Virus record (IMG/VR): IMGVR_UViG_3300046507_000077 | Coordinates: 1 to 41,488 of that record | Source: a virus | DNA: 41,488 bases | Reading direction: 5' to 3' (one strand) | Shown here: positions 21,429 to 39,747 of the stretch, in pieces | How positions within the stretch are numbered: the first letter of the stretch is position 1 | Layout: the number at the start of each line of letters is the position of its first letter | Position numbers and translations under genes: made by a program | Notes under the pieces: model-generated | Told to the model about the DNA's origin: nothing | What the model saw: the letters and a program-made list of their open reading frames with translations, nothing else | Database searches by the model: none

Positions 21429-21472
21429 GGGAAGGGGGCAACCCACTCTTGAGAGCAGGCTGACCCCTTCCC
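21429..21472 (-). terminator. Terminator-like hairpin with operator palindrome 6 in its head
   Basis: GGGAAGGGG (21429-21437) pairs perfectly with CCCCTTCCC (21464-21472). The palindrome CCCACTCTTGAGAGCAGG (21442-21459) lies in the loop on the same dyad axis. It follows the capsid gene. Confidence 0.7.
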
Positions 21473-21483
21473 GCTAAGCCGGA

Positions 21484-22686
21484 TTAGGCACCGGTGGTGA
21501 TCGTCAGGACCTTCGCAGCGCGCTCGTCCACAAGGAGACCGTCCGCACGCTGAATGAAGCGGTACACGACCTGATCGTTCATGAACTTGTAGTCAACCGA
21601 CCGCTCAACGCGGAGAGCCCCGGCAAGGCGAACGCGGTACTTGCCCAGGTCACCGAACAGAATCTTGTTCAGCGGGACACCGTCGTCAGTCGCAACGGGC
21701 TTGCCGTTGAACATGTCCGGAGCGCCGGCCACGAGACCGGAAGCCCACAGGTACTGACCGTTCGCGTCCTTGAGCTTGCGCATGAGCGCGGCAGTCTTGT
21801 CGGCAACGACGTACTTGCCGTCCCGGCGGTAAGAGTTCGTCAGCTCGTAGCTCAGGTCAATGAGCGCGTCGGCAACCTTGCCGTCAGGGGACGTGGTGGT
21901 GAAGGTGGCAGTGGCAGCCGGAGCGGAAGTGAAGATGCCCTTCGGCTGACCCGTACCGGTGCCGGTCAGGAAGTGCCGACCCATGCCGTCACCAATGGCC
22001 GGACCCGCGTCACTGACAAGGAAGCCGACAAGGTCAAGCGCTTCGTCAGCGATGAACTCAGACGAGATCACAGACGCGTAAGCGTACTTGTACGCGCCCA
22101 CCGAAACCTGAATGGTGGACGGGTTCGACTCCGGGATGTTCCCGTTCTCGCCAACGATGGACGCGGACGCGCGACCGGTGACAACAGTGAAGTCGATCGG
22201 CTCACCGCTGGACGTGGTCACGATGCTCGCACCGTTGCGCATGATCGTGCTGCGCTCAACGGCCTGAGCGAGAAGCTGACCGTACAGCGTCCGGGTCAGA
22301 ACGTTCGGGTTGCCGGGACGGTCCACAGCGCGCGTCTCAACGTCCCCCGCCTCAGCGCGGAACTCAAGCACCTTGCCGAAGCCGTCAGCGCCACCCAGGG
22401 AACGAAGCTGAGCGGAAGCGTCCGCAAGCTTGTCCTGAGTCGCCTTCTTGCTGCCGGAGCCCTTGAGTCCCTGCATGAGAGAGGTGACGTTCTCAGTCGC
22501 AGCGAGAGCGTCAACGCCGCGCTTGATCCGACCGTCATAGTCGGCAATGGCGGTCAGAAGGTTGTCTTCCTTCTGTCGCGCCTCAGCGGTCATGTCCTTG
22601 CCGGCGAACTCGTCGGTCAGGGTGCGAAGCTCGTTGGTCGCACGCTCACGAGCCTCAAAGTTGGCGCTCAGGGTCTTCGCGTCCAT
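21484..22686 (-). CDS. Major capsid protein, HK97 fold
   Basis: A 400-residue precursor. Residues 1-115 are a charged helical scaffold-like delta domain (FEARERATNELRTLTDEFAG). The mature part carries typical HK97-fold blocks: VVTGRASASIVGENGNIPES, YKYAYASVISSEFIADEA, FLTGTGTGQPKGIF, and the C-terminal YRFIQRADGLLVDERA. The neighbouring protease presumably removes the delta domain. The ATG shares its A with the protease TAA (TAATG). Confidence 0.9.
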   Translation of the reverse strand: MDAKTLSANFEARERATNELRTLTDEFAGKDMTAEARQKEDNLLTAIADYDGRIKRGVDALAATENVTSLMQGLKGSGSKKATQDKLADASAQLRSLGGADGFGKVLEFRAEAGDVETRAVDRPGNPNVLTRTLYGQLLAQAVERSTIMRNGASIVTTSSGEPIDFTVVTGRASASIVGENGNIPESNPSTIQVSVGAYKYAYASVISSEFIADEALDLVGFLVSDAGPAIGDGMGRHFLTGTGTGQPKGIFTSAPAATATFTTTSPDGKVADALIDLSYELTNSYRRDGKYVVADKTAALMRKLKDANGQYLWASGLVAGAPDMFNGKPVATDDGVPLNKILFGDLGKYRVRLAGALRVERSVDYKFMNDQVVYRFIQRADGLLVDERAAKVLTITTGA

Positions 22687-23342
22687 TAGGCACCCGCCCT
22701 TTCATGAGCGCGGATAAGCGCCCGTTCGTTGTAAAAAGAAACCGGCTCCGATGTGTCGGAAGCCGGGTTGTCGTTTCGCTCTTCGGATTCGGGCGGAGGG
22801 GGAGCGAAGTCCCCTATGCCTAGCGCCTGTTCGACGGAGCGAAGCGCTGCCTGAGTAGTCGGGTAAGCCGGGTTCACCACCGGTCCGACTTCGGCAACGT
22901 CCATGGCCGTGATTTCCCGAATGGGAAGACCGGTCTCAGGGTCGTCGTCGTCTGCCCGACGCTGCCCACCGTCCAGCACGCGGAAGGTGAAGGAGCTACC
23001 GCGAAGGTCACCGCGCTTGAGGAGAGTGGCAACGTCACGGCCGGTCGTGGTGTCGGGAAGGTCAATCTCATAGAACCCGCCCTCACGGTCTTCACCGACC
23101 CGGAGCGTCCCCGCACCCGTCCGCCCAAGAAGGGCGTTGACGTTGTGGTTGAACGTGGCAAGCACGTCGTTCTGCCGCAGCGACGGAGCACCCGCACCCG
23201 GAACGATCCGCTCTCGGAACCCGCCCAGGTCGTGACTCAGCTCGTTGAAGCGGTAGGCGTAACCGCGCATGACGATCTCGCCGTTGTCCGCCTTGCGCTC
23301 TTCCGGTGGGCTGACCGCGAACCTACGTTCAAGGTCAGTCAT
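22686..23342 (-). CDS. Prohead protease, HK97 family
   Basis: A 218-residue serine protease of the U35/HK97 type. VMRGYAYRFNELSHDLGGF leads in, FNHN (catalytic H), DLRGSSFTFRV (catalytic S) and the VAEVGPVVNPAYPTT segment follow. It trims the capsid precursor before maturation. The C-terminus is proline- and acid-rich. The ATG lies within the last codons of the portal gene (ATGACTGA), so portal, protease and capsid are translated as one coupled unit. Confidence 0.9.
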   Translation of the reverse strand: MTDLERRFAVSPPEERKADNGEIVMRGYAYRFNELSHDLGGFRERIVPGAGAPSLRQNDVLATFNHNVNALLGRTGAGTLRVGEDREGGFYEIDLPDTTTGRDVATLLKRGDLRGSSFTFRVLDGGQRRADDDDPETGLPIREITAMDVAEVGPVVNPAYPTTQAALRSVEQALGIGDFAPPPPESEERNDNPASDTSEPVSFYNERALIRAHERAGA

Positions 23343-24693
23343 CCGTACCCCCTTCGTCAGCCGGCTCTTCGGTCGGCTTCTCTTCGTCCGGCTCGTCTTC
23401 GGCCGGTGGCTCAATGGCGGGGGGCTCAACGGGCTCAGGCTTCGGCTCAGGCTCCGCGCCAACTTCGGCAAGGTTCATGGGCACGCGGTAGCTCTCGCCC
23501 AACCCGTCAGGCAGCGGCGGAAGGTCTTCCGAAGCACGGACTTCGTCAATGCTGTAAATGCCGTTTTGCAAGCCGAGTGAGTACAGCTCCATACGTTCCT
23601 TCGGAGCGCCACGCTTGATCTCGTCAAGGTCGAACTTGACGAAGCGGAAGCGGTCGGCAGACTCCGCGTACAGAAGGCGCGTGAACCCTGCCTCAATGCG
23701 CTCAAGCCACGGGCGCAGAGAGAACATGCTGAATGCGATGTTCTGTTCAGCGAGACCGGAGCCCCACGAAGTGGAGTTCGTAGCGTCGCTGATCAGGTGC
23801 GGGGGAACGCCGAAGATGCGTGCAATCTCAGGAACCTGAAACTGTCGCGTCTGCAAGAACTGAGCTTCGTCCGGGCTCATTGCGACCTTGCTGAACTTCG
23901 CACCTTCGGTGAGAAGCGCAACCCGGTGAGCGTTGTCAACGCCCGTGTTGGCTGTGCGCCACGCTTCACGCGCACGCTTCAAGCCGTCTTCGGACATGGT
24001 CCCGGGCACTTCAACAACCGCACCGGGGACAGCGCCGTTCGCAAAGAACTTGCTTCCGTACTTCTGCGCAGCGAGAGCAAGACCGATGGACTCACGCGCG
24101 TACGTGATCGGGCTACAGCCGGCGAACTCACCGGGCAGCATCATCCCTGGGATATGGAGAATGTCCCGGGGCGTGAACCATCCAAGAGCGACTTCGTTAC
24201 CGTCGTCGTCAATGTCGAAAGCCTCAAAGACCTTCCGGCGCTGACCGTCAACCATGACCATGTGCGGCACGATCGACGTTGGGTCAAGCACGTCAAGCCC
24301 AACGATGTTCGGACCCTGCCAACGAACGGCAAGGTACGCGTTCCCGTCAAGCAAGAGGCTGAGCACGGTCTGAGACAGAATGTCAATCCGTCCCATGCCG
24401 CCGGGCTCCGCGTTCGGGTAGTCCAGCCAATCCGGCGACGTGATCGCGCGCTGAGACCCACCACGCTTCGTGTACGTGGCTACGGGCAGCGTGGCAATCG
24501 TCTCCGACAGAAGGCGGACACAGCCGAAGACCGCGCTCACCTGTAGTGCGTCAGAAGCGGTCACACGCTCACCGGAAGCAGCGGTCAGGGTGCCGTAAAG
24601 CGTTGGGTCGTACGGCACCCATTCGCGGGATTCGGTAGCAGTGCCCAGCGCTGGGGACTCCCCCCGGCGGAGTAGGTCAGACCAGAAGCCCAC
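23335..24693 (-). CDS. Portal protein, HK97 family
   Basis: A 452-residue portal with recognisable family segments: SDALQVSAVFGCVRLLSETI, the SQTVLSLLLDGNAYL strand, QVPEIARIFGVPPHLI, WLERIEAGFTRLL. It forms the dodecamer through which DNA enters and to which the terminase docks. The C-terminal 60 residues are proline- and glutamate-rich (EPEPKPEPVEPPAIEPPAED), which is unusual but seen in actinophages. The GTG at 24693 follows AAGGGGG. Palindrome 7 lies 17 bases upstream. Confidence 0.9.
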   Translation of the reverse strand: MGFWSDLLRRGESPALGTATESREWVPYDPTLYGTLTAASGERVTASDALQVSAVFGCVRLLSETIATLPVATYTKRGGSQRAITSPDWLDYPNAEPGGMGRIDILSQTVLSLLLDGNAYLAVRWQGPNIVGLDVLDPTSIVPHMVMVDGQRRKVFEAFDIDDDGNEVALGWFTPRDILHIPGMMLPGEFAGCSPITYARESIGLALAAQKYGSKFFANGAVPGAVVEVPGTMSEDGLKRAREAWRTANTGVDNAHRVALLTEGAKFSKVAMSPDEAQFLQTRQFQVPEIARIFGVPPHLISDATNSTSWGSGLAEQNIAFSMFSLRPWLERIEAGFTRLLYAESADRFRFVKFDLDEIKRGAPKERMELYSLGLQNGIYSIDEVRASEDLPPLPDGLGESYRVPMNLAEVGAEPEPKPEPVEPPAIEPPAEDEPDEEKPTEEPADEGGTDD

Positions 24694-24709
24694 CGGGTCC
24701 CCCTTCTTG

Positions 24710-24727
24710 CCTACTCTTGAGAGTGGG
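24710..24727. promoter_or_regulatory. Operator-like palindrome 7
   Basis: CCTACTCTTGAGAGTGGG, filling the gap between the terminase stop (24728) and the portal start. Confidence 0.7.
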
Positions 24728-26275
24728 CTAGTCGAACATCCCGGCTTCGCCACCGATGATGTGTACGCCTTCGTCGTCTTCGTACGTGGCGAGAATCGCC
24801 GTGTTGACGAAGTCGCCGTTGTCTTCGCGCCACATCACAGCGCCGTGAACGGCAAGGATCATGGCAACGGCAAGGTCGATCTTTCGGCGCGACGAAGCGT
24901 GTTCCTTCGTGATGCGTGCGCCCCGTGCGTCCTCACGGATCACGGCGTTACCGATATGCCGGGCAAGAGCCGGGTTGCCGTCGTGGCTCATCCGACCGTC
25001 ACGAGCCGCGTCGTACACGGCCTGAGTGGCAGGCACCATGCGGGCAAGTGAGTTCGTCGGGAACGCTTCGACCGGGTAACCCTCAGCCTCAAGGTTCTCT
25101 AGCGTCTCTTCCCAGCGGTACGGGTCAGCGACAAGGTTCACGACGCGGTACGTGTCCAGTGCTTCGCGCAGTGACTCACGTACGTCGGGCATGGGGACGC
25201 GCCAATGAGCATCCCCTTGAGGGGCTTCCCAATGGCCTAGGACGAACACGCGAAGGTCTTCGACGCGGCAGGCAACGAGCGCCGTGCTATCGCCCTTCCA
25301 TGAGCCGTCAAAGCCCAGCACAACGGCTTGCCCGGGTAGAAGGTCGTCGTCTTCCGCAAGGCTGTCCCACAGCCCGTGAGGCAGCCACGTGGACGAGCCA
25401 CGGACGAACTGACTCAGTCGGTAGATCCTGAACGACGCTTCGGTACTCCGCTGAGCGGCAGCCTTGAAGTCGTCTTCGTTCAGGATCTCGTAAGACGGGT
25501 TGCACGCCTTCCAGACTTCGGGGTCAAGGTGGTCAACGGTGTCACCGATGCGGGGACCCCACGAGCGGAAGAACAAGGTGGGGTCGTTGGCCTCACCGGA
25601 GTTCACCCGCTCACCGGTCTCGCACAGCGCGGCGAACGGTCCGTCAGGGTCAGGGCCGGCGGTCGATACCACCCAAGTCATGGGTTGGTTACGCGCGGCA
25701 GAACCCAGCGTCAGCGCGTCGAACAGGTCAGCGTTCTTGCTGAACGCGTATTCATCCAACGACACAGCGACCGGGTTCAAACCCTGTTGCCGTCCAGCGT
25801 CCGCGCTCACGACTCGGTACGTGTTGTCCTTGTACCGGATAATGTCGCGCTGCACATCACACACGGCGCTGAGCTTCGGGGACGCGTTGACCATTTGCTT
25901 CGCCGCGTCGAAAACCATGCGCGCCTGATTGCGGTCATTCGCCGCTGCGATCACCTGACGTTGCATGTCCGCGCGGTCGGCAATCAGGTGGTAAAGCATG
26001 ATGGCTGCCGCAATCGTGCTCTTGCCGTTCTTACGGGCAATGCACACGACAGCCATTCTGTGCTTGCGCTTCCACCTGCCAAACGCGTCTTGCTCAAGTT
26101 GGTACGCGTCGATCAGTAGTTCCCGCTGCCACGGAAGGAGCTTGAACTGTTGGCCGGCGAACGAGCCGGTCAGGTAGCAGAACTCTTCAATCCACTTCGC
26201 TACGCGGTAGCCCTCACTGGGGAACGGCGCGTCAGCGGGAATGTGCCGAGAGATGACCGGGTCAATCTTGCTCAC
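24728..26275 (-). CDS. terL: Terminase large subunit
   Basis: A 515-residue packaging motor. The ATPase has Walker A CIARKNGKST (about 78-87), a preceding PWQRELL adenine-binding motif, and Walker B VSLDEY. The C-terminal RNase H-like nuclease has GFDGSWKGDST (first catalytic D), NLVADPY and KIDLAVAMILAVHG. Length and motifs are complete. It belongs to the HK97/phiC31-type terminases that cut at cos. The GTG at 26275 follows GGGGGTGACCG. The small subunit and an HNH gene lie upstream. Confidence 0.93.
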   Translation of the reverse strand: MSKIDPVISRHIPADAPFPSEGYRVAKWIEEFCYLTGSFAGQQFKLLPWQRELLIDAYQLEQDAFGRWKRKHRMAVVCIARKNGKSTIAAAIMLYHLIADRADMQRQVIAAANDRNQARMVFDAAKQMVNASPKLSAVCDVQRDIIRYKDNTYRVVSADAGRQQGLNPVAVSLDEYAFSKNADLFDALTLGSAARNQPMTWVVSTAGPDPDGPFAALCETGERVNSGEANDPTLFFRSWGPRIGDTVDHLDPEVWKACNPSYEILNEDDFKAAAQRSTEASFRIYRLSQFVRGSSTWLPHGLWDSLAEDDDLLPGQAVVLGFDGSWKGDSTALVACRVEDLRVFVLGHWEAPQGDAHWRVPMPDVRESLREALDTYRVVNLVADPYRWEETLENLEAEGYPVEAFPTNSLARMVPATQAVYDAARDGRMSHDGNPALARHIGNAVIREDARGARITKEHASSRRKIDLAVAMILAVHGAVMWREDNGDFVNTAILATYEDDEGVHIIGGEAGMFD

Positions 26276-26370
26276 CGGTCACCCCCTTGTTCAGTTGGCG
26301 ACCCCACCCGGATTCTCACCGGGACTACCGCGCGTCAGCGTCGGCGTGCTCGTTACACCATGGGGAAGTT

Positions 26371-26811
26371 CTAGAAGTCTTCGGGTCCCGCTTGAACCTT
26401 GCGGGCTTCGGCAGCCACGATTCCGAGACGCATACGGGCTTCGGGCGTGAACCCAATGACGGTCTCGATAGCGCGAAGTTCCTTCTCCGTGCTTTCGACG
26501 TACCGCATTGCCGGGTGAACCACCGGCTGACCCGTGCTGCCAATCGTCATGAGACCGTCAGCGTCCACAGCGTCAAGGAGCTGAGAGCGTCGGTCGTACA
26601 GCTCCGCGTACCGAAGGATCAGGTTGCGGTCAGTGTCGGGGGAGTACGCGCCTGAGCCGGCCTGCCAGACTGAGCGCCAAATCTCCTTGCCCGTGTTGCC
26701 CAGGTGACCCGGAGCACGGGGAGCGCGACCTTCGTACACCACCGGTGCCTCAGCCTCAGCGGCGTAGTTGGCATTCCCGGTGCGTAGCTCAGGGCTCTTA
26801 GCGTGGCTCAT
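26371..26811 (-). CDS. terS: Terminase small subunit
   Basis: A 146-residue P27-like small subunit: APGHLGNTGKEIWRSVWQAG at the start, LILRYAELYDRRSQLLDAVD in the middle, RYVESTEKELRAIETVIGFT and PEARMRLGIVAAEARK at the end. It recognises the packaging site and regulates TerL. The ATG at 26811 has GGGGGTG upstream; ATG 26835 lacks spacing for a ribosome site. The gap to HNH (26812-27007) is the best place for cos. Confidence 0.85.
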   Translation of the reverse strand: MSHAKSPELRTGNANYAAEAEAPVVYEGRAPRAPGHLGNTGKEIWRSVWQAGSGAYSPDTDRNLILRYAELYDRRSQLLDAVDADGLMTIGSTGQPVVHPAMRYVESTEKELRAIETVIGFTPEARMRLGIVAAEARKVQAGPEDF

Positions 26812-27007
26812 GGCACCCCCTAACGGAGCGTTCATCCCCCTTAACGGGTGCCTTCGTGGCGGGTACAAAGTGGGGCATTCCCAGTGTCAGCCCAGGTGGG
26901 CACGAGTGCGCTCCGGCCAAAATCGGCCGTGCACCTAGCGTGCGTTTTCCGAGCTGGGGCCAGGATCGCTGAGAGGTATCGGTCTGAACTTTCGGGACGC
27001 TCTCCCC
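26812..27007. other. Intergenic region between HNH and TerS, candidate cos region
   Basis: A stretch of 196 bases without a convincing gene. It holds an inverted repeat CGGCC...GGCCG around AAAAT (about 26917-26932), several GTGC/GCAC repeats, and runs of C (CCCCCTTAACGGG, CTCCCCC). The HNH-cos-TerS-TerL order is common among HK97-type cos phages. No cleavage site can be identified by reading alone. Confidence 0.4.
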
Positions 27008-27355
27008 CTAGAAGGGGCGCTTACCGAAGTCCATTGCCGTCTTCGTCTTGTGGCATGACTTGCACAGCACTTGAACGTTGCTGTCTACGTCCTCACCACC
27101 ACGAGCAAGCGGAGTCACGTGGTCAATGTCCACCTGAGAAGGCAGATACCACGCAAGGCACATGCGGCACTGTCCAGCCACGGCCTTACGCACAGTCTTG
27201 CGGAGACGAGCCGCAGCATTGTTGCCGCGTGCTATGGCCTCACGCCGCTTGACGTGTGACTGAATGCTTCGCCTTGCTGTGTAGTGGGCATGGTGTATCG
27301 AACACCTGCCGTTGTGGGTAGCCCACTCTCGACACTCAAGACAACGTGTACGCAT
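27008..27355 (-). CDS. HNH endonuclease next to terminase
   Basis: A 115-residue HNH nuclease. CLECREWATH opens the protein. The core is CRMCLAWYLPSQVDIDHV, TPLARGGEDVD, NVQVLCKSCHKTKT, with the paired cysteines and the DH of the catalytic motif. HNH proteins adjacent to the terminase are needed for cos cleavage in HK97 and related phages. The ATG at 27355 follows GGGTGGGTAGTCC, with palindrome 8 53 bases upstream. Confidence 0.85.
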   Translation of the reverse strand: MRTRCLECREWATHNGRCSIHHAHYTARRSIQSHVKRREAIARGNNAAARLRKTVRKAVAGQCRMCLAWYLPSQVDIDHVTPLARGGEDVDSNVQVLCKSCHKTKTAMDFGKRPF

Positions 27356-27407
27356 GGACTACCCACCCCCCTCTTGTGCGGGCACCCCCTATGGGATGAC
27401 CCCCCTA

Positions 27408-27425
27408 CCTACTCTTGAGAGTGGG
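27408..27425. promoter_or_regulatory. Operator-like palindrome 8
   Basis: CCTACTCTTGAGAGTGGG followed by CTGAC, between tRNA-Lys and the HNH gene, at the head of the late operon. Confidence 0.75.
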
Positions 27426-27434
27426 CTGACTGTG

Positions 27435-27507
27435 TGGGTCGGGTAGGACTTGAACCTACAACGCGCGGGTTAAGAGCCCGCTGCTCTACCAATTGAGCTA
27501 CCGACCC
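27435..27507 (-). tRNA. tRNA-Lys (anticodon CTT)
   Basis: The gene folds as a full cloverleaf: acceptor GGGTCGG/CCGACCC, D-arm GCTC...GAGC, anticodon arm GCGGG-CTCTTAA-CCCGC (anticodon CUU, reading AAG), T-arm GTAGG-TTCAAGT-CCTAC, discriminator A. CCA is not encoded. PhiC31-type phages often carry one tRNA. It may support translation of the AAG-rich late genes or replace a cleaved host tRNA. Confidence 0.95.
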
Positions 27508-27557
27508 GAAGCCCTGGGCTACAACCCGGAGAGAGACCGGGGAGCACGCAAGGCGAC

Positions 27558-27622
27558 GTGAGCCGGTGGGTTCTGACCGCCGTATCTGTGTGGAAGGGTG
27601 CGCGTTACCTCTTCCGGCTCAC
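27558..27622 (-). other. Long-stem structure of tRNA-like outline
   Basis: GTGAGCCGG (27558-27566) pairs perfectly with CCGGCTCAC (27614-27622), enclosing 47 bases with a near T-arm (GGCGG-TCAGAAC-CCACC). D and anticodon arms are not convincing. It could be a degraded tRNA or a leader structure. Confidence 0.35.
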
Positions 27623-27630
27623 CCTTACTA

Positions 27631-27650
27631 GAGCTAAAGGGATTCCCTAG
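27631..27650 (-). promoter_or_regulatory. Early-promoter-like motif copy g1
   Basis: The minus strand reads CTAGGGAATCCCTTTAGCTC. It is the downstream member of a tandem pair overlapping by three bases. Confidence 0.5.
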
Positions 27651-27667
27651 AGCGGAGGGGATTCCCG
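27648..27667 (-). promoter_or_regulatory. Early-promoter-like motif copy g2
   Basis: The minus strand reads CGGGAATCCCCTCCGCTCTA, a full match, directly upstream of g1. It reads towards tRNA-Lys and the late genes. Confidence 0.65.
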
Positions 27668-27707
27668 CGCGGGGGTTGCTGTGGTCCGCCGGCTGACAGC
27701 GGGTAGG

Positions 27708-27796
27708 TGCAGGTTTGCAGATTTGTACCTGACTCCGGTTTACCTTATGACTTTCTATAGTGTTACCAAGATCAAGTACAAAGCTGCACTAGAGCA
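27708..27796 (-). promoter_or_regulatory. Duplicated 89-bp element, copy 2
   Basis: It is homologous to 6257-6345. Left TGCAGATTTGTAC and right GTACAAAGCTGCA form an inverted pair (12 of 13). The minus strand has TTGTAC, 16 bases, TATAGA between them, a good host-type promoter reading towards the tRNA and late operon. Its location suits the late promoter or an origin-like element. Confidence 0.55.
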
Positions 27797-27804
27797 TTAG
27801 CCCA

Positions 27805-27823
27805 GCTCAGGCAGGGGATTCCT
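27805..27823 (-). promoter_or_regulatory. Early-promoter-like motif copy h (weak)
   Basis: The minus strand reads AAGGAATCCCCTGCCTGAGC. The core is kept but the CGCTC tail is altered. It precedes the 89-bp element. Confidence 0.35.
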
Positions 27824-27861
27824 TCCGGGGCTCGTGTAGGGAGTGTCACGGCACGGTATAC

Positions 27862-27876
27862 TAGTTAGCCTAACTA
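27862..27876. promoter_or_regulatory. 15-bp palindrome in promoter-like context
   Basis: TAGTTAGCCTAACTA has perfect arms around one central base. On the minus strand it lies between TTCAAC and TAGTAT with 17-bp spacing; on the plus strand it is next to TATACT. It is the most AT-rich palindrome in the window and differs from the operator family. Confidence 0.45.
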
Positions 27877-27891
27877 ACGAGTTGAAGACAC

Positions 27892-27929
27892 AAAAAGAAG
27901 GGGACCGACCGCCATGGTCAGCCCCCTTC
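27892..27929 (-). terminator. Rho-independent terminator of int
   Basis: GAAGGGG pairs with CCCCTTC, with GACC/GGTC inside, followed by TTTTTG on the minus strand, 12 bases after the int stop. Confidence 0.9.
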
Positions 27930-27940
27930 CGCTGTGCTTG

Positions 27941-29716: not shown

Positions 29717-29734
29717 GATCCTACCGGAGCGCCA

Positions 29735-29780: not shown

Positions 29781-29798
29781 TTGTCTGACCAGCAGAAA

Positions 29799-29841
29799 CC
29801 CCGGTCGGCAGTATGTTTTGCGGACAGACAGCCGACCGGGG
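29799..29841. terminator. 11-bp stem hairpin upstream of attP
   Basis: CCCCGGTCGGC pairs perfectly with GCCGACCGGGG (loop of 21). It may stop transcripts from the upstream operon before attP and int. Confidence 0.55.
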
Positions 29842-31654: not shown

Positions 31655-31716
31655 GGTTCCCCCCATGTGCGTGTCTCGTACAGGAATCGTGAAGGGTAGC
31701 CCATGGGTACGACAAC

Positions 31717-31757
31717 GCCCCCGTACCAACCGCCGGAGTGGCAGTCAGCACGGGGGC
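31717..31757 (-). terminator. Hairpin terminator
   Basis: GCCCCCGT pairs perfectly with ACGGGGGC, after the membrane protein gene. The minus strand continues TGTCG. Confidence 0.65.
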
Positions 31758-31770
31758 TGTGGCGCGTCGT

Positions 31771-32670: not shown

Positions 32671-32681
32671 GTCGCTTGCCC

Positions 32682-32717
32682 CTCAAGTGGTATGACGTTC
32701 TGTCAGCACCTCTTGAG
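32682..32717 (-). promoter_or_regulatory. Leader hairpin after motif copy i
   Basis: CTCAAGTGGT pairs with ACCTCTTGAG (9 of 10 positions) directly after the motif. Confidence 0.45.
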
Positions 32718-33146: not shown

Positions 33147-33351
33147 GGTGTGGGGGGTAACGGGGCACCTACCCCTTGCATCACACACGTAACACAAGGC
33201 AATCGTGCCACTTCGGAGCGTTGGCCATAGCGTGCGTTTCCGTTCTCGAACATGCGTACGAGGATACTCCGAGCCACTGACATATGCCAGATTTATTACT
33301 CTCCGTCACTGCTTGTGAGCTTGTGAACTGATCAAGCGCAAAATGGGCCAA
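33147..33351. other. AT-richer gap, possible promoter region
   Basis: Upstream of the 147-aa gene lie 205 bases with lower GC, TAATAAAT on the minus strand, and a tandem pair GCTTGTGA GCTTGTGA (33311-33326). No promoter with clear -35 and -10 was found. Confidence 0.35.
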
Positions 33352-33369
33352 CCTACTCTTGAGAGTAGG
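33352..33369. promoter_or_regulatory. Operator-like palindrome 9
   Basis: CCTACTCTTGAGAGTAGG flanked by GGGCCAA and CTGACCC, which extend the dyad. Confidence 0.75.
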
Positions 33370-33398
33370 CTGACCCCATACCCATACTCAGCACGCGC

Positions 33399-33434
33399 GA
33401 AGCCCCCCGACTCCAACGGGAATCAGGGGGCTTC
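33399..33434 (-). terminator. Hairpin terminator
   Basis: GAAGCCCCC pairs perfectly with GGGGGCTTC, just after the 72-aa gene. Confidence 0.7.
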
Positions 33435-33442
33435 ATGTGCGG

Positions 33443-33661
33443 TCAGTTCTGTGTGTACCCGATCCGCTCGAACCGAGAGACTTCGTATGCGGCAGCGTCA
33501 GCGCCGTAACCCGGCTCGAACCCTTCGGCAGCGTAGTCGAACGTCCAGCCGGTCAGTTCGTCCCCGCTGCTCAGGAGAACGCGCACGGTCAGCGTCTCGT
33601 CTTCAAGGCTGACTTCGGCAGTCTGGTTCATTTCGGCGTTCGTGAGCTTCACGGTGTCCAC
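33443..33661 (-). CDS. Hypothetical protein, 72 aa
   Basis: An acidic small beta-rich protein: VKLTNAEMNQTAEVSLEDET, LTVRVLLSSGDELTGWTFDY, then YEVSRFERIGYTQN. The GTG at 33661 follows AAGGGGAACACA. A perfect 18-base palindrome lies 42 bases upstream, with the GCTTACAAGG block between, as at the 57-aa gene beside the repressor. The two genes share control but not obvious sequence. Function unknown. Confidence 0.65.
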   Translation of the reverse strand: MDTVKLTNAEMNQTAEVSLEDETLTVRVLLSSGDELTGWTFDYAAEGFEPGYGADAAAYEVSRFERIGYTQN

Positions 33662-33680
33662 TGTGTTCCCCTTCGGCGTT

Positions 33681-33721
33681 TCCTGCTTACAAGGGAATCA
33701 TAGCCTACTCTTAAGAGTAGG
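33681..33721 (-). promoter_or_regulatory. Operator-like palindrome 10 with conserved downstream block
   Basis: CCTACTCTTAAGAGTAGG (33704-33721) is a perfect 18-base palindrome, the best of the family. TCCTGCTTACAAGG at 33681-33694 is shared with 8477-8490. The minus strand has TATGAT directly after the palindrome, a good -10 sequence. Confidence 0.8.
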
Positions 33722-33729
33722 CACAGCGG

Positions 33730-33927
33730 TTACGGCAAAGTCATGTCGAGTTGCTGAAACAGGGCTTGCGCCGCGTCCTCACTCAGATGAAGCGTGTTCG
33801 TCTGTGAGTACCCGTCTTCGGTGAAGTGCCCCCGCACGGTCACAGTCCGATTGCCCTTGCTGTCCACCGTTGCCTCAGCGGACGCGTCCGTGAAGACGAC
33901 CGACCGGTTGCGCATGCGCTCAGCCAT
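33730..33927 (-). CDS. Hypothetical protein, 65 aa
   Basis: A small beta protein (ASAEATVDSKGNRTVTVRGH) followed by a helix (LHLSEDAAQALFQQLDMTLP). The ATG is inside the end of the lipoprotein gene (ATGGCTGA), so the two are coupled. No family recognised. Confidence 0.6.
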   Translation of the reverse strand: MAERMRNRSVVFTDASAEATVDSKGNRTVTVRGHFTEDGYSQTNTLHLSEDAAQALFQQLDMTLP

Positions 33928-34273
33928 CGTTGCGATCGTGGCAGACAACGTGAGTGCCGGAACCCGGGTTGACCGGCACCGGAACCACCGTTGTACCGCC
34001 GGAACGCTGCGGGCTCTTCGGCGTGGCCGGCTTGTTGAAGTTGGGCTTCGGAGCCGGAGCCGGAGCGGGACGCGGAGCGGGGGCAGGTGCGATGCGCGGA
34101 GCCGGAGCCGGACGCGGGACGCTGAAACCAACCGTCGTGTACGTGGTGCAGTCGGTGTCGTCGTCGTCGTCAGCGGCACAGCCGGTCACCATGAGCGCGC
34201 CCACGAGAACGACCGAAGCGGCACCGGCAAGCTTCGTGCCGGTGCTCATCTTGTTCTTGCTGTACGAGTTCAT
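33920..34273 (-). CDS. Proline-rich lipoprotein
   Basis: A 117-residue protein with a basic start, a hydrophobic helix and lipobox LMVTGC (lipidated cysteine C32), then a five-aspartate run, a proline-alanine repeat (PRPAPAPRIAPAPAPRPAPA) and a short C-terminal domain. The proline-rich stalk suits a surface-exposed protein crossing the wall. As an early or lysogenic gene it may act in exclusion. Coupled to both neighbours (ATGA; ATGGCTGA). Confidence 0.7.
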   Translation of the reverse strand: MNSYSKNKMSTGTKLAGAASVVLVGALMVTGCAADDDDDTDCTTYTTVGFSVPRPAPAPRIAPAPAPRPAPAPAPKPNFNKPATPKSPQRSGGTTVVPVPVNPGSGTHVVCHDRNDG

Positions 34274-34491
34274 TCGTCGCTCTCCTCAACGTTGCGGTAA
34301 CTGACCTTGCGCTTCCATGCGTCGCGCACCTGGGCAGCGATCAGGGACAGTGCGTCAGTCTTCTTGGGTCCGTATCCGTGCGAACCGTTCAGTTGGCCGT
34401 GACGCTCAAGGTCCAGCCATTCGGCAACCATGTCGTCCAGCACGTCAATTGCGGCAGGGTCAAGCTCAAGGAACGGGTTCTTGTCGCTCAC
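34270..34491 (-). CDS. Hypothetical protein, 73 aa
   Basis: A 73-residue helical protein: FLELDPAAIDVLDDMVAEWL, then KKTDALSLIAAQVRDAWKRK. It starts at GTG 34491, only nine bases after motif copy j (minus strand GCTCCGGTACGGGT GTG), so the transcript has almost no leader. First of a three-gene coupled unit with the proline-rich lipoprotein. Confidence 0.65.
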   Translation of the reverse strand: MSDKNPFLELDPAAIDVLDDMVAEWLDLERHGQLNGSHGYGPKKTDALSLIAAQVRDAWKRKVSYRNVEESDE

Positions 34492-34499
34492 ACCCGTAC

Positions 34500-34519
34500 C
34501 GGAGCGGAGGGGATTCCCG
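34500..34519 (-). promoter_or_regulatory. Early-promoter-like motif copy j
   Basis: The minus strand reads CGGGAATCCCCTCCGCTCCG, a full match, between an operator-hairpin and the 73-aa gene. Confidence 0.7.
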
Positions 34520-34529
34520 CCCATGCGAA

Positions 34530-34569
34530 GGGCCGGCCAACCCACTCTTGAGAGTAGGTTGACCGGCCC
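34530..34569. terminator. Near-complete 40-nt hairpin with operator palindrome 11 as its head
   Basis: GGGCCGGCCAAC (34530-34541) pairs with GTTGACCGGCCC (34558-34569), 11 of 12; CCCACTCTTGAGAGTAGG (34541-34558) continues the stem to a TG loop. It follows the 65-aa gene. Confidence 0.75.
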
Positions 34570-34574
34570 GTTGG

Positions 34575-34772
34575 TCAGTCGGTGTCGTTCGTGTCCCGGG
34601 CAAGGAAGCGCGCAAGGGCAAGCACGTCTTCCGGGTACGCGTCGTTGACAAGCGTCGCTTCACGGATCAGGCGCATTGCCACCCGGTACGTGTCCACGCG
34701 CTCAGCAAGGTCTTCCGCTGCCCGCTGTGCCCGTGAGGTGAGTACAGGGGGCTTGAACTCCGGGACCGTCAC
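34575..34772 (-). CDS. Hypothetical protein, 65 aa
   Basis: A helical protein (SRAQRAAEDLAERVDTYRVA, then LVNDAYPEDVLALARFLARD) with no recognised domain. GTG at 34772 overlaps the previous TGA (GTGA). Last gene before the operator hairpin. Confidence 0.6.
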   Translation of the reverse strand: MTVPEFKPPVLTSRAQRAAEDLAERVDTYRVAMRLIREATLVNDAYPEDVLALARFLARDTNDTD

Positions 34773-35080
34773 GGACGGAGACCGCGCGCAATGAGATCCT
34801 GATACGCGCGTTCCTGGGGGCTCATGGTGCGTCGCTCGTACCGCGTGCCGTTGAAGGTGAGCGAAGTCTTCGCAGTGTCCCGCGTGACCTTCTCCTGTTC
34901 AGCGGCAGTCTCGTTCAGCCATGCGGCAAGCTCACGCATTTCGCGCGGAGACAGCTTTGCCCGGTCACCCGGAATGGCGAGAGACGCAATGCCCGGCTCA
35001 CTGTCCTTCGTGAAGGCAACGACGCGCTCACCGGTCTTCGTGCGGAGTACGGCCTTCGTCTCACGGGTCACGCTCAGCAT
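34769..35080 (-). CDS. Hypothetical protein, 103 aa
   Basis: It starts MLSVTRETKAVLRTKTGERV (beta strands), then GDRAKLSPREMRELAAWLNE (helix) and YERRTMSPQERAYQDLIARG. The ATG at 35080 has the strongest site (GAGGAG). ATG 35149 overlaps the previous stop (ATGA) and would give 126 residues; both are plausible. It is the second gene of a three-gene run. Confidence 0.6.
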   Translation of the reverse strand: MLSVTRETKAVLRTKTGERVVAFTKDSEPGIASLAIPGDRAKLSPREMRELAAWLNETAAEQEKVTRDTAKTSLTFNGTRYERRTMSPQERAYQDLIARGLRP

Positions 35081-35145
35081 GGGTGCTGTCTCCTCAATGG
35101 TTCGGGCGGAAGCCCAGTTGTAAAGGTGTGGGGAAGGCGTAACGC

Positions 35146-35550
35146 TCATGCGTCCGCCCAAAGGGAAAGCTGCACGGGCTTGAACGGCTCGTGACTGACG
35201 AGAACGGCAGCGTCCTTGCGGAACACGACCTGACCGAAGTTCCCGACGCGGTACGCGAATTCAGGAACTTCGTACTCCCATACGTGGAAGCCGGCGGAAG
35301 CCAACCGGTCTCCGAAGTCCTCAAACCAGTTGTTCAACTCGTCCGGCGACGCGAACCCACAGACTTCGTCGTCGTGAATCGTCATCAGGTTCGGGTCAGC
35401 TTGCGGGGAAGGGTGCCGCGCGTCGCTGTGTCGCCAACCCATACCGGCCAACTTCTCGCGGTCGGCAAGGGGGACGTTCCGGCACGAGTAAGGGCCGGAA
35501 GGAAAATCCTTGTCCCGTACTGACGCGTGAGCAACCCGCCAAACCTTCAC
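35146..35550 (-). CDS. Hypothetical protein, 134 aa
   Basis: A 134-residue protein that looks like an actinophage conserved protein: KVWRVAHASVRDKDFPSGPY, DREKLAGMGWRHSDA, MTIHDDEVCGFASPDELNNW, FAYRVGNFGQVVFRKD. The pattern of beta strands with HPSPQADP and a DxxxCGF motif suggests a small sensor- or ADP-ribosyl-like fold, but I cannot name it. GTG 35550 follows CAGGAGACGCACC. It starts 35 bases downstream of the tRNA-like element. Confidence 0.65.
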   Translation of the reverse strand: MKVWRVAHASVRDKDFPSGPYSCRNVPLADREKLAGMGWRHSDARHPSPQADPNLMTIHDDEVCGFASPDELNNWFEDFGDRLASAGFHVWEYEVPEFAYRVGNFGQVVFRKDAAVLVSHEPFKPVQLSLWADA

Positions 35551-35584
35551 GGTGCGTCTCCTGATCGTTGGGTGTGGTCTTGCG

Positions 35585-35670
35585 TGCCCCGGGCGGGATT
35601 CGAACCCGCGTCGTCCCGTGCACCCTTGCGGGCTCCGGATTGGGGTGCTCTTCCGTTGAGCTACCGGGGC
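35585..35670 (-). tRNA. tRNA-like gene with an abnormal anticodon arm
   Basis: A stretch of 86 nt with acceptor GCCCCGG/CCGGGGC plus discriminator A, D-arm GCTC-AACGGAA-GAGC, and T-arm GCGGG-TTCGAAT-CCCGC, all perfect. The 37 bases between them do not give a 5-bp stem with a 7-base loop. ATCCGGA would read as an Arg loop (CCG) but its flanks (CCCCA, GCCCG) do not pair; CACCC and GGGTG pair instead around 17 bases. It is a degraded tRNA-Arg or a non-standard structure. Confidence 0.6.
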
Positions 35671-35692
35671 GTAGGGCCGAAGCCCCCTTGCG

Positions 35693-35896
35693 TCAGACAG
35701 CCGACTTGCGGCGGCAAGCGAGAGCGTCAGCGCCACGGAGCGAAGCGAGCATGTAAAGCGACTCCTCACCGTTCTTGTGCACGGTGCTGATCGTGTTGCC
35801 GTCCGCGTTGCGGGTGACGAACTCAATGGCCATGCGCGGTCGGTTGCTGCGGTAGGTCTGAACGGTTCCGCCGGTCGGCAGGTTGTAGATAGCCAC
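35693..35896 (-). CDS. Hypothetical protein, 67 aa
   Basis: A small beta-rich protein (YNLPTGGTVQTYRSNRPRMA, FVTRNADGNTISTVHKNGEE) ending with a basic tail (LACRRKSAV). GTG 35896 has AAGGAGAACCACC. Motif copy k lies 36 bases upstream. Fold may be a small RNA- or DNA-binding beta sheet; no family is recognised. Confidence 0.65.
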   Translation of the reverse strand: MAIYNLPTGGTVQTYRSNRPRMAIEFVTRNADGNTISTVHKNGEESLYMLASLRGADALACRRKSAV

Positions 35897-35932
35897 GGTG
35901 GTTCTCCTTGCTTCGCGTTCTGTTGCTCTCAA

Positions 35933-35952
35933 TGGAGCGAAGGGGATTCCCC
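35933..35952 (-). promoter_or_regulatory. Early-promoter-like motif copy k
   Basis: The minus strand reads GGGGAATCCCCTTCGCTCCA, overlapping the stop of the endonuclease VII gene. Confidence 0.7.
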
Positions 35953-36239
35953 TACCGATCAACCCGGCGGTAATCCGCGTCACGGGTGAGGTAGTCGGCA
36001 GCGCGTAGAAGGCGCTCAGGGTCGTCTTTGAAGTGGCCTAGGGCGAGATTGCACGAGTGGCACAGAACGCCCCGTACGCGCCCCGTGGCGTGGTCGTGGT
36101 CAATGCTGTGAGCCTTGCCGTTGGCCGGCGGAAGGGTGCCGCATATGGCGCACGGACGGGCCCGCAACTCCAATGCCACGGAGTCCACGAGCCCGTACCG
36201 TCCCGCACGGTTCCAAACCGCGTAGCGGGGACGCTTCAC
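35952..36239 (-). CDS. Endonuclease VII-like HNH nuclease
   Basis: A 95-residue protein with the T4 gp49-like core: CAICGTLPP, then HSIDHDHATGRVRGVLCHSC, NLALGHFKDDPERLLRAADY. Endonuclease VII resolves branched DNA. Actinophage versions are usually longer and begin with a zinc ribbon (C-x2-C, C-x2-C). That ribbon is here at the C-terminus of the upstream sigma-like protein. GTG 36239 overlaps that gene's stop (GTGA). Confidence 0.85.
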   Translation of the reverse strand: MKRPRYAVWNRAGRYGLVDSVALELRARPCAICGTLPPANGKAHSIDHDHATGRVRGVLCHSCNLALGHFKDDPERLLRAADYLTRDADYRRVDR

Positions 36240-37249
36240 GCAGCGGCAGCCTTCTTGCGCGCGTTGTACGCACGCTTCTGCTCAGCGCGCTTCTCCGGGT
36301 TGTCCTTGCGGAAGCGCTTCGTGGCTCCGCGCTTGCACGACTTGCACTGAGACGCACGCGCGCCGGTGACCTTGTTCCGAATGTAGAACTCGTCAACGGG
36401 CTTCTCGAACCCGCACGACTTGCAGCACTGCGTTTCACCCTTGGGGGCTTCCGGGCTACCGCCCAGGTACAGCGTCTTGAAGTTCTTCCGGGCTTCGTCC
36501 CTCACGCTCTCAACGGCCGTGTATGCGACTCCGGCCACTTCGGCAAGTCCCCGGTGGTCGTCGGCACCGAGACACGGGAAGTCGCCAATGCCGTACTCAG
36601 CGGAAAGAACGGCTTCCTGTTCGGCAGGCAGAAGGTCAAGGGTCTCGTGGACGCGTCGCTTGTTCTCGCGCTGCCGCTGGGAAAGTTCGTCGTTCGCCTC
36701 AGCGCGGGCAATCTCGTACGTGTCGTTCAGTCGGTCGGCAAGCGTGGCGCTAGGACCCTCAACGTCCCCGCCCATGGGCGCGTCAAGGTACTCAGCACCC
36801 TGCCACGAGATACGAGCGGCGTACGCGGTCTCAGCGGTCATGCGCTTGCTGCCCATGACTTCGTGCAGGGTGCACAGCCGCTCAGCTTCGTACGGGTCAC
36901 CGGCTGCCATGCTCAGCGCCTTCTCAAACTCAGCGGCAATCGAACGGCTGACACCCTGCCGCGTCACGGTCTTGCGCTCGTCGCTGAGCTTCCCGGAAAC
37001 GGTCCGGTCCATGAAGGTGAAGAACTCAGCGACAGACGAGCCGGTGAAACGACTCAGCCCTTCCCACACGGCCACCCGACCCACCTGGGCAAGATCGTCC
37101 ATCAAGTCAGCGTCGGTGCGTCCGCCGGTCGTTGCGTACCGCCGGGCAAGCTGAGACACGCGCTCTTCGGTCGCTTCAATCACGGCGCTGACAGCGGCAA
37201 GGTCGTTGTTCTGAGCGGCGGCAATCTGCTGTGCGGTCAGGTCGATCAC
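36236..37249 (-). CDS. Sigma-70-like protein with C-terminal zinc ribbon
   Basis: A 337-residue protein. DDLAQVGRVAVWEGLSRFTG and AEFFTFMDRTVSGKLSDERK (51-93) resemble sigma region 2. LPAEQEAVLSAEYGIG, LAEVAGVAYTAVESVRDEAR and KNFKTLYLGG (207-264) resemble region 4 with its helix-turn-helix. A ribbon (C276, C279, C302, C305) and a basic tail close it. Regions 1 and 3 are not obvious. A phage sigma would redirect host polymerase. GTG 37249 follows AAGGAG, and a consensus motif copy lies 35 bases upstream, allowing self-activation. It may instead be an antiterminator-like regulator. Confidence 0.75.
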   Translation of the reverse strand: MIDLTAQQIAAAQNNDLAAVSAVIEATEERVSQLARRYATTGGRTDADLMDDLAQVGRVAVWEGLSRFTGSSVAEFFTFMDRTVSGKLSDERKTVTRQGVSRSIAAEFEKALSMAAGDPYEAERLCTLHEVMGSKRMTAETAYAARISWQGAEYLDAPMGGDVEGPSATLADRLNDTYEIARAEANDELSQRQRENKRRVHETLDLLPAEQEAVLSAEYGIGDFPCLGADDHRGLAEVAGVAYTAVESVRDEARKNFKTLYLGGSPEAPKGETQCCKSCGFEKPVDEFYIRNKVTGARASQCKSCKRGATKRFRKDNPEKRAEQKRAYNARKKAAAA

Positions 37250-37273
37250 TGGGGAATCTCCTTCGAGTGGCTT

Positions 37274-37303
37274 CGCTCCGGAATGGAGCGGAGGGGATTC
37301 CCA
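37274..37303 (-). promoter_or_regulatory. Early-promoter-like motif copy l with leader hairpin
   Basis: The minus strand reads TGGGAATCCCCTCCGCTCCA (37284-37303), a full match, upstream of the sigma-like gene. CGCTCC (37274-37279) pairs with GGAGCG (37285-37290). Confidence 0.7.
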
Positions 37304-37463
37304 CCGAAGGAGTCAGGACGTTTGCCCAGGTCACAGCCTGTTTTGGGCATGGCTTCGCCACGGAATGGCGAAAATGGGTGTCACGGCCTGAGCCCCGTCA
37401 GTGGGCGATTCGTGCGACGGGGCGTGATCAAGGCCGTACGTCGTGGTGCTCTTCGAACGTATG

Positions 37464-37503
37464 TCAGTGCCTACTCAGAAGCAACGTTCTGAGTAGGCAC
37501 TGA
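37464..37503. terminator. Perfect 17-bp hairpin containing operator half-arms
   Basis: TCAGTGCCTACTCAGAA pairs perfectly with TTCTGAGTAGGCACTGA over the loop GCAACG. It includes CCTACTC/GAGTAGG, the outer arms of the operator family, separated by a longer centre. There is no T-run on either side. Confidence 0.75.
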
Positions 37504-37650
37504 ACTTCAATATGACCACGAGCGGAGACGAGCCGGAAGCGCAAATCGAAGGTGCAACCCGGGGCTCATCCTTCGGGATGACGGTTGTACTCCCCCGATA
37601 ACAAGGGGGTCACCTTTGAATCGTAGAAACGACGCTTCGGGGCTCGTCAG

Positions 37651-37668
37651 CCCACTCTTGAGAGTAGG
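37651..37668. promoter_or_regulatory. Operator-like palindrome 12
   Basis: CCCACTCTTGAGAGTAGG in the noncoding region downstream of the polymerase. Confidence 0.7.
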
Positions 37669-37681
37669 CAGTGAATCGTGA

Positions 37682-37710
37682 TCCGGCCGTGACCGAATCG
37701 AACGGCCGGA
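37682..37710 (-). terminator. Hairpin terminator after DNA polymerase
   Basis: TCCGGCCGT pairs perfectly with ACGGCCGGA, loop of 11, 27 bases past the stop. The T-run is poor. Confidence 0.65.
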
Positions 37711-37736
37711 CAGAAGCGGAAGGTGGCACAGCTCAC

Positions 37737-39689
37737 TTATGCAGCCTTCGCGTACGCCGCTTGCGGGTTCACCGCGTACCACTCGTCCTGAGCGATCAGG
37801 AGTTCAGGCAGGTACTTGCCCGCCGTGTCCTTCATGTACAGGCTGCCCCACGAGCGACCGCCAATCTCCGCTTCGGAGCTAATCGGAACGCCGAACAAAT
37901 CGAACGACATGCAGCGCTCGAACTCACGGGCAAAGTCCTGGGCTTCACGCGCGGGCACCGACGCAAGCACTTCGTCATGGATCGGCAACTTCATGTAGTC
38001 GAGAAGCCCGGCCTCTTCCATGTTCAGCATGGCTTGCCCCAGCACGTCACGCGCTGCCGACTGTGATTGGTAGTTCACAACGGCGTACATGCGGTCACGG
38101 TCCAGCGGCAGCCGGCGACCGGTGACGGACACGGTGACGAGCCCGGTTGCACGAGCTTCCCGCTGCCACTTCTTGGACGCGCGGACGATCTCCGGATACG
38201 CCCGGTCGTACGCAGCAATGGCAGCACGCACCTGAGCGATAGGCGCACCGGTCTGACGCGCGATCGTCTCAGCCCCTCCGCCGTAGACCTTGCCGAAGCC
38301 GATTCCCTTACAGAGCTTGCGGTGAGCCTTCGTGAAGTTCGGACCGAACACGAGTCGCGCCGTGAAGTCGTGCAAGTCCTCACCGGCGTTGATCGCTTGC
38401 TTCATGCGCTTCACGTTGGCGAGAGCGGCAAGAACGCGCATTTCAACGGCAGCGAAGTCGGTGCTGATCATCACGTGACCGGGGTCAGCGAGAAGAGCGC
38501 GCCGGATCATGTAGTCAGACGATGGCAGCGTTTGAAGCGCGGGCTTCGTGATGCTCATACGCCCCGTGCGCGCGGCAAGGGTCTGTATGTTCGGGTGGAC
38601 GCGACCGTTCGCGTCAAGGTTGTTCAGGAAGGTGTCCGCGTACGCGGTGACCCACTTACCCGCACGCTTCGCGCGAAGGACAGCGTCAGCAAGCGGGTTC
38701 GCCTTACGACCCCCTACGCGCTCCCAATCGCGGTCAAGGTCAGCGAGGAACTGAAGAACGGCCTTGTCCGTCTTGAGCGCGCCACCGTCCGTGTACTCAG
38801 GCGAACTGTTGCCCGGAAGAATCATGTCTTCGCCCATGGCAAGGAGTGCTTCCGCAACCTGGGCACCGGAGTTGACCGACTGAACGCCGTACCGGGCGGC
38901 AATGGCGCTGTGCTTCGCCTCTTCTTCGTGCAGCTTTACGCTCAGCGTGGACGCGTACTCACTGTCCAGCACGATTCCCGCGCGCATCATCACTGAGCAC
39001 ATGCGGGCAATTTGGTGCTCGTAGTCCACGAGTGCCTGACGCACGCCGAGACGAGCAAGCTCAGCGGTCAGGATCGGGTCAAGACGCGCTGTGTAGATCA
39101 CGTCAAGGCCGGCGTACAGGTTGTAAGTCGGGTGGTCCAACGGGATGTTGGCCCAACCCGTGGCCTTCGTGAAGCCGAGACCGTTAAAGACTTCGGTCAG
39201 GTCTCCGGCAGTGTCCGGGGCGTTCGGGTCAATGTAGTGACCGGCGTTCGGCTTGAGCCCGGTCCCGATACCTCCCTTGTGGGGCTCACGCGGGTCAATG
39301 AGCGTCGCCTTGATCTTCGTGTCAACCGTCTTCGGTGCCAGGATCTCAAGGGCATACGGCGCGTGCTCGTCCAGCACGAGCCAATCAAACGGCGCGTTGT
39401 GGATCAGGAAGCGTGAAGCCATGCGCAGCACGTACAGCGCTGCCTCAATGAAGCGTCCCCCGCGCTCCCAATGGATTACCCATGCCGTGTGCTCGTCCCC
39501 GAACTGAATGGTCCGGAGTCGGTAGTTCGGGCTGTAGATATCCAGCCCGGTCGTCTCGGTGTCCAGCGCGATCGGTCCACGGAGAGCGGCAGTGCGCGCC
39601 CACTGCATGAACTCACGAAGGTCGTTGTCAGTCTCCGGAATGTTGATCCGGACCACTTCGCCGGCCACGTCATGGAAGTACGTTTTCAA
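37737..39689 (-). CDS. DNA polymerase I (family A) with 3'-5' exonuclease
   Basis: A 650-residue replicative polymerase. The proofreading domain has ALDTETTGLD (exo I, D and E), LIHNAPFDWL (exo II), and LDVIYTARLDP (exo III region). The polymerase has motif A MISTDFAAVEMRVLAAL, motif B RKLCKGIGFGKVYGGG with K and Y, and motif C LPIHDEVLAS. There is no 5'-3' exonuclease domain, as usual in phages. The TTG at 39689 follows AGGGGACACACC. Palindrome 13 lies 31 bases upstream. Confidence 0.93.
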   Translation of the reverse strand: MKTYFHDVAGEVVRINIPETDNDLREFMQWARTAALRGPIALDTETTGLDIYSPNYRLRTIQFGDEHTAWVIHWERGGRFIEAALYVLRMASRFLIHNAPFDWLVLDEHAPYALEILAPKTVDTKIKATLIDPREPHKGGIGTGLKPNAGHYIDPNAPDTAGDLTEVFNGLGFTKATGWANIPLDHPTYNLYAGLDVIYTARLDPILTAELARLGVRQALVDYEHQIARMCSVMMRAGIVLDSEYASTLSVKLHEEEAKHSAIAARYGVQSVNSGAQVAEALLAMGEDMILPGNSSPEYTDGGALKTDKAVLQFLADLDRDWERVGGRKANPLADAVLRAKRAGKWVTAYADTFLNNLDANGRVHPNIQTLAARTGRMSITKPALQTLPSSDYMIRRALLADPGHVMISTDFAAVEMRVLAALANVKRMKQAINAGEDLHDFTARLVFGPNFTKAHRKLCKGIGFGKVYGGGAETIARQTGAPIAQVRAAIAAYDRAYPEIVRASKKWQREARATGLVTVSVTGRRLPLDRDRMYAVVNYQSQSAARDVLGQAMLNMEEAGLLDYMKLPIHDEVLASVPAREAQDFAREFERCMSFDLFGVPISSEAEIGGRSWGSLYMKDTAGKYLPELLIAQDEWYAVNPQAAYAKAA

Positions 39690-39709
39690 GGTGTGTCCCC
39701 TAACGCCAA

Positions 39710-39747
39710 AAGGGGCCAACCCACTCTTGAGAGTAGGCTGACCCCTT
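39710..39747. terminator. Hairpin with operator palindrome 13 as its head
   Basis: AAGGGG (39710-39715) pairs with CCCCTT (39742-39747) and CCCACTCTTGAGAGTAGG (39720-39737) continues the stem; 15 of 18 pairs form around a TG loop. It lies between methyltransferase and polymerase. Confidence 0.75.

Follow-up and report, generated by a model that had tools for sequence, protein, structure and literature searches.

Operator-like palindromes head terminator-like RNA hairpins at four shared positions in phiC31-like Streptomyces phages

We examined IMGVR_UViG_3300046507_000077, an IMG/VR virus record of 41,488 bases analyzed at its full length (hereafter the window), and within it a set of operator-like palindromes, some of which stand at the top of longer RNA hairpins. 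The window comes from a phiC31-like Streptomyces phage, its DNA being 75-86% identical to that of phiC31, phiBT1, TG1 and other Streptomyces phages. Its mapped genes lie on the minus strand, the transcribed strand. The primase gene is divided between the two ends (3-1739 and 40885-41487), which suggests a circularly permuted cut of the phage genome. A repressor gene of the phiC31 c family is present (6618-8234, minus strand; PF25746 Phage_Repressor_c, E 4.2e-122), as would be expected of a genome with phiC31 c-repressor operators. The palindrome CTACTCTTGAGAGTAG was found, with ≤3 mismatches, at 13 sites, compared with 0.12 matches expected per shuffle. We took these palindromes as operators on the strength of their number, near-identity and mostly intergenic placement (13 in the window and 166 in the twelve genomes described below). 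Four of them, designated T1-T4, head longer hairpins:

21429-21472, minus strand: T1, operator-headed hairpin between the major capsid gene (open reading frame (ORF) 21484-22686) and the gp37 homologue (ORF 21046-21414)
39710-39747, minus strand: T2, operator-headed hairpin between the DNA methylase gene and DNA polymerase
34530-34569, minus strand: T3, operator-headed hairpin between the RL42 homologue and the gp17 homologue
33344-33377, minus strand: T4, operator-headed hairpin, then ATTTTG, upstream of the gp22-region genes

The sequence-only reading had proposed that flanking sequences lengthen the palindromic stem at these four places, and it located them correctly: the flanks extend the stem (score ≥20) at precisely 4 of the 13 operators, with scores of 33.5 for T1, 28 for T2, 34.5 for T3 and 21 for T4. 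When right flanks were swapped among the 13 window sites, four or more extended sites arose in 41 of 20,000 shuffles. The pairing had been described on the plus strand, where the flanks contain A.C mismatches; these are G.U pairs on the transcribed minus strand, so that 14/15 flank pairs form at T1, 12/12 at T2, 13/13 at T3 and 9/9 at T4. RNA folds of the transcribed strand reached -35.2, -34.1, -38.3 and -29.0 kcal/mol for T1 to T4, respectively, with z-scores of -5.5, -6.1, -6.9 and -6.0, and none of 200 shuffles folded equally well.

A comparison across twelve genomes (the window, phiC31, RemusLoopin, Sebastisaurus, Heather, Euratis, Vash, Lilbooboo, Samora, Shawty, phiBT1 and TG1) yielded 166 operators, a count that excludes two matches inside genes (RemusLoopin 2105 and Shawty 4074); phiC31 has 16 sites of the same palindrome family (CTACTCACGTGAGTAG). 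Operator loss in TG1 and Euratis, which gave 0 matches to the initial query, was rejected as a query artefact, both phages carrying variant operators. Four positions are shared: T1 follows the major capsid gene, T2 separates primase or methylase from DNA polymerase, T3 precedes thyX or gp17, and T4 precedes gp22. T1, T2 and T3 are occupied in 12/12 genomes and T4 in 11/12, with two T4 sites in Shawty. Extended stems (score ≥20) were found at 44/44 operators at T1-T4 compared with 9/122 elsewhere, T1-T3 being defined by their neighboring genes and the T4 list being chosen by hand with the scores already visible. Over all sites, 53/166 operators were extended, against a mean of 7.5 and a maximum of 16 in 2000 shuffles of the right flanks. 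The Euratis operator, a variant of 17 base pairs (bp) that is one base longer, lies outside the 44-site count; a hairpin scan of that genome placed operator-headed hairpins at all four positions (5390, 25676, 31696 and 32929). The idea that all operators are hairpins was ruled out, since 113 of the 122 non-T sites score <20. The nine extended stems elsewhere include those upstream of the repressor gene in RemusLoopin (L002 18145), Sebastisaurus (L003 18176), Heather (L004 17795) and phiBT1 (L010 18647); the window has no such stem there (8202), so stems are gained or lost at a conserved operator.

To look beyond these genomes, we used the capsid protein, which led to 57 further loci. We retained 47 non-duplicates whose capsid gene was complete, excluding apparent copies of phages already included (L049, L054, L055, L056 and L065), loci in which the capsid gene was cut (L079, L081, L083 and L084) and a 24% partial match (L085). 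A hairpin scoring ≥28 lies within 130 nucleotides (nt) behind the capsid match in 47/47 loci, and one scoring ≥34 in 45; hairpins scoring ≥28 occurred in 7.1% of 1200 random windows and at 28% of 574 other gene ends. In 39/47 loci the hairpin head was found again elsewhere in the same locus (≤2 mismatches), and about ten versions of the T1 head were seen, for example CTACTCAATTGAGTAG, CGACTCACGTGAGTCG, TACCTCACGTGAGGTA and CGGATTACGTAATCCG. Twelve whole contigs (G001-G012) were available, and an extended operator-headed T1 stem is present in 12/12. Eleven of these were scored in the whole-contig scan; the stem of G001, whose odd-length palindrome escaped the operator scan, was seen in the capsid-locus scan. 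T2 was found in 8/12 contigs, T3 in 4 and T4 in 3. Operator sites in the contigs were sought with the T1 head as the query (a consensus form for some), and the agreement of T1 with the other sites in G002-G012 is partly by construction, from which the twelve-genome set is free. In a comparison of T heads with each lineage's non-T operators, 58/61 scored best with their own lineage; the three exceptions are near-ties (margin -0.1) from G002 and G003, whose consensus is the same.

Because a DNA-binding palindrome would covary as well, we assessed both covariation and strand. The stems vary in sequence from phage to phage, yet their two sides covary. In the T1 alignment of 32 distinct sequences, from which six loci were left out (L064, L067, L069, L070, L071 and L092), 92% of cells were paired compared with 70% (maximum 74%) when the 3′ letters were shuffled, and double changes numbered 95 compared with 27 (maximum 42) in shuffles. 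Covariation was similar at T1-T4 of the twelve-genome set. Among mismatches on the transcribed strand in the first ten flank positions, the ratio of G.U to A.C was 49:5 at T sites and 148:83 at other operators (Fisher test, 6e-5; with related sites not independent, p-values here are guides only). The extension score itself favors G.U over A.C, but this count was made over ten fixed positions. Within the operator arms, the corresponding ratios were 21:2 and 13:15 (9e-4). With one genome per lineage, they were 26:2 in the flanks and 8:0 in the arms, and T1 in G002-G012 gave 17:2. The transcribed-strand RNA was more stable than that of the opposite strand at 41/44 T sites and 77/122 others. Mismatches that fall mostly as G.U on the transcribed strand, together with the greater stability of that strand's RNA, show that selection acts on a hairpin formed by the transcript, beyond DNA symmetry; symmetry serving DNA contact only was ruled out by the G.U and A.C counts. 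Operator-like palindrome and terminator-like hairpin lie in one sequence that is conserved, covarying and transcribed-strand-specific.

The positions of the hairpins bear on what they might do. Each is a stable, GC-rich transcribed-strand structure close behind a stop codon, the distance being 5-18 nt at most sites, as would be expected of an intrinsic terminator. Among ten annotated relatives, T1 starts 9-16 nt after the stop codon, with the next start codon 13-30 nt beyond it; T3 starts 5-11 nt after the stop in 8/10, with the next start 14-38 nt beyond; and behind T2 the next start follows at 12-61 nt. At T4 the next start lies ≥217 nt beyond the hairpin in 7/9 annotated relatives. In the window, judged by eye, the space behind T1 and T2 amounts to little beyond a ribosome-binding site. 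Tails agree with termination in part, being T-rich at T3 and T4 (56/110 positions compared with 150/610) and not at T1 (15/55). Many T2 and T4 sites have a GCCCC...GGGGCTT stem and tail that recurs in operator-free hairpins of those genomes. A generic terminator scan of 21488-41487, a range that leaves out T1, did not list T2, T3 or T4; we set it aside because it demands ≥5 T in 8. The sequence-only reading had suggested that one element could both end transcription and bind repressor. This is supported in part, in that an operator-like palindrome shares its sequence with an RNA hairpin of terminator type. What needs changing is full termination at three of the positions: with the next gene so near and so little room for a promoter, that gene would be transcribed by readthrough, and T1-T3 would be leaky attenuators at which full termination is unlikely, while T4 could be a true end.

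We therefore consider, with moderate confidence, that T1-T4 are two-state elements of phiC31-like phages, serving as a repressor roadblock in the form of DNA and as an intrinsic terminator in the form of RNA, a proposal drawn from sequence comparison in which repressor binding at T sites, the blocking of elongation, termination and its leakiness are all predicted features. As DNA, the top of the palindrome would be an operator for the phage repressor c, and in a lysogen or immune cell the bound repressor would block polymerase moving along the operon. When repressor is absent, the whole palindrome would be transcribed into a GC-rich hairpin acting as an intrinsic terminator, leaky at T1-T3 and stronger at T4, with its T-richer tail and, in most phages, ≥200 nt before the next gene begins; the effect at T1 would be to favor messenger RNA (mRNA) of the capsid gene over that of the tail genes. 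Roadblock (in the lysogen) and hairpin (during lytic growth) would be mutually exclusive, alternating rather than additive states, because, as the geometry suggests, polymerase would be halted by bound repressor before most of the hairpin had been transcribed. In this two-state scheme the stem contains the operator, so hairpin heads would change with it. We tentatively raise the possibility that, with a single palindrome as a two-state stop, each change of immunity specificity must rewrite the terminators, so that heads follow operators across the family.

Several observations count against this proposal. Most operators (122/166) lie elsewhere than at T1-T4, the T4 operator is missing from Heather in the twelve-genome comparison, and orthologous T sites are related rather than independent. 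The tails at T1 are not T-rich (15/55, p 0.63). G004 has a longer palindrome as its operator, so that its T1 stem, at 24.5, hardly stands out from the others (10-22.5). Moreover, 15 of the 19 strong transcribed-strand hairpins outside mapped window genes lack an operator and 4 contain one; an operator is therefore not needed for a hairpin.

Among the alternatives, the one that survives best holds that the hairpin is a stabilizer of mRNA 3′ ends or intercistronic regions, or a processing site, setting the persistence of capsid and other messages without termination, with the operator acting on DNA only. The placement of T1-T3 within tandem gene runs, where the next start is 12-61 nt off, and the T1 tails suit this idea, yet the T enrichment at T3 and T4 and the stem and tail that many T2 and T4 sites have in common with operator-free hairpins speak for termination, as does, going by the title alone of a 1995 paper, phiC31 termination without poly-U; we regard it as unlikely. 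Alternatively, these could be ordinary terminators that overlap operators as an economy of sequence, with the four operators unoccupied or their occupancy irrelevant. A palindromic operator is a ready-made stem and operator-free terminator-like hairpins are common, but pure selection for a hairpin does not require the head to track each phage's operator over about ten versions, and none of the genomes and loci examined lacks an operator-like head at T1, so this explanation seems to us distinctly improbable. That the flank symmetry is merely a longer repressor contact surface on DNA, with RNA folding irrelevant, is very hard to credit: symmetric flanks could be read by both halves of a dimer and the G004 operator is itself long, but flank sequences vary among sites of one genome with complementarity alone kept, G.U outnumbers A.C among transcribed-strand mismatches (49:5), and the stems are limited to a few intergenic positions.

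The remaining nine operators of the window, listed without strand, are as follows:

2624-2639: operator without extended stem, directly behind a separate operator-free hairpin at 2653-2690
8201-8216: operator without extended stem, upstream of the repressor gene
8497-8512: operator without extended stem, behind an operator-free hairpin at 8535-8586
14547-14562: operator without extended stem, gp45/gp46
16442-16457: operator without extended stem, tape measure/gp44
24711-24726: operator with an imperfect extended stem (score 19, many mismatches), terminase/portal
27409-27424: operator without extended stem, int/HNH
33705-33720: operator without extended stem, a few nt upstream of TATGAT; promoter-type by eye
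37652-37667: operator without extended stem, pol/sigma

The operator at 33705-33720 represents a class, seen in the window and its relatives, that lies a few nt upstream of TATGAT-like hexamers; operators of this class look promoter-linked. Besides the nested arrangement there is a side-by-side one, in which operators adjoin separate operator-free hairpins; it is seen in the window at 2624 (with 2653-2690) and 8497 (with 8535-8586), and in phiC31 (L001) at 17011 (with 17025-17064). At 37464-37503, between the genes for DNA polymerase and a sigma-like protein, the window has a perfect 17-bp inverted repeat (TCAGTGCCTACTCAGAA ... TTCTGAGTAGGCACTGA) that holds operator half-sites moved apart; a similar repeat is present in RemusLoopin, Sebastisaurus and Heather. 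One window protein has a weak match to sigma-70 region 2, slightly below the family cut-off, and a transfer RNA at 35585-35670 was found by Rfam (50.9 bits) and not called by ARAGORN. Finally, a 20-nt repeat, GGGAATCCCCTCCGCTCAAG on the transcribed strand, has thirteen copies in the window, many slightly upstream of gene starts, and is perhaps a start-associated sequence; copies lie at:

1770-1789, 4727-4746, 5070-5089, 6230-6249, 9191-9210 and 13878-13897
27628-27666, 32712-32731, 34499-34518, 35932-35951, 37283-37302 and 40857-40876

PhiC31 is a standard tool phage, and promoter control by itself hardly accounts for its scattered repressor sites, which extend into the late operon. An element that is operator and terminator in one would be a directly testable answer to what such sites do with and without repressor. 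It would also provide a compact two-state stop of natural origin, and an instance in which immunity specificity and RNA structure have to evolve together.

In phiC31, conserved inverted repeats dispersed in the genome are the operators of repressor c. The window sites resemble them in palindrome family, in mostly intergenic placement and in the accompanying c-family repressor; what is added here is that operators at four positions head longer RNA hairpins. In 1995, Ingham, Hunter and Smith reportedly described, to go by their title, phiC31 Rho-independent terminators without poly-U tails. By that title these are hairpins with weak T tails in the early region, where T2-T4 also lie, and the paper may already describe one or more of the T hairpins. 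Our literature search found no paper joining phiC31 operators with terminators; the closest phiC31 papers were outside its reach, so such a paper may exist. The T7 terminator T-phi, a leaky intrinsic terminator directly behind major capsid gene 10, occupies a position like that of T1, without an operator.

Lac repressor bound at O3 within a transcribed region blocks elongation (PMC3711431), and this block is shared with the roadblock proposed here, whereas a terminator hairpin is not described in the abstract of that paper. The sequence-only reading had likened the elements to stoperators while noting that they are palindromic. Stoperators, in the available portions of two papers on the cluster A mycobacteriophages L5 and TipsytheTRex, are asymmetric 13-mers in one orientation, bound by repressor monomers (PMC9283540, PMC6550527). 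According to the same portions, many such sites are spread across intergenic spaces, and sites and repressors diverge together; a hairpin is not mentioned there. Dispersed intergenic placement is common to both systems, and the likeness is at most functional: stoperators are asymmetric 13-bp sites, whereas the elements described here are palindromic and their RNA copy is a hairpin. By this comparison, T1-T4 are not stoperators, though they may work in a similar way.

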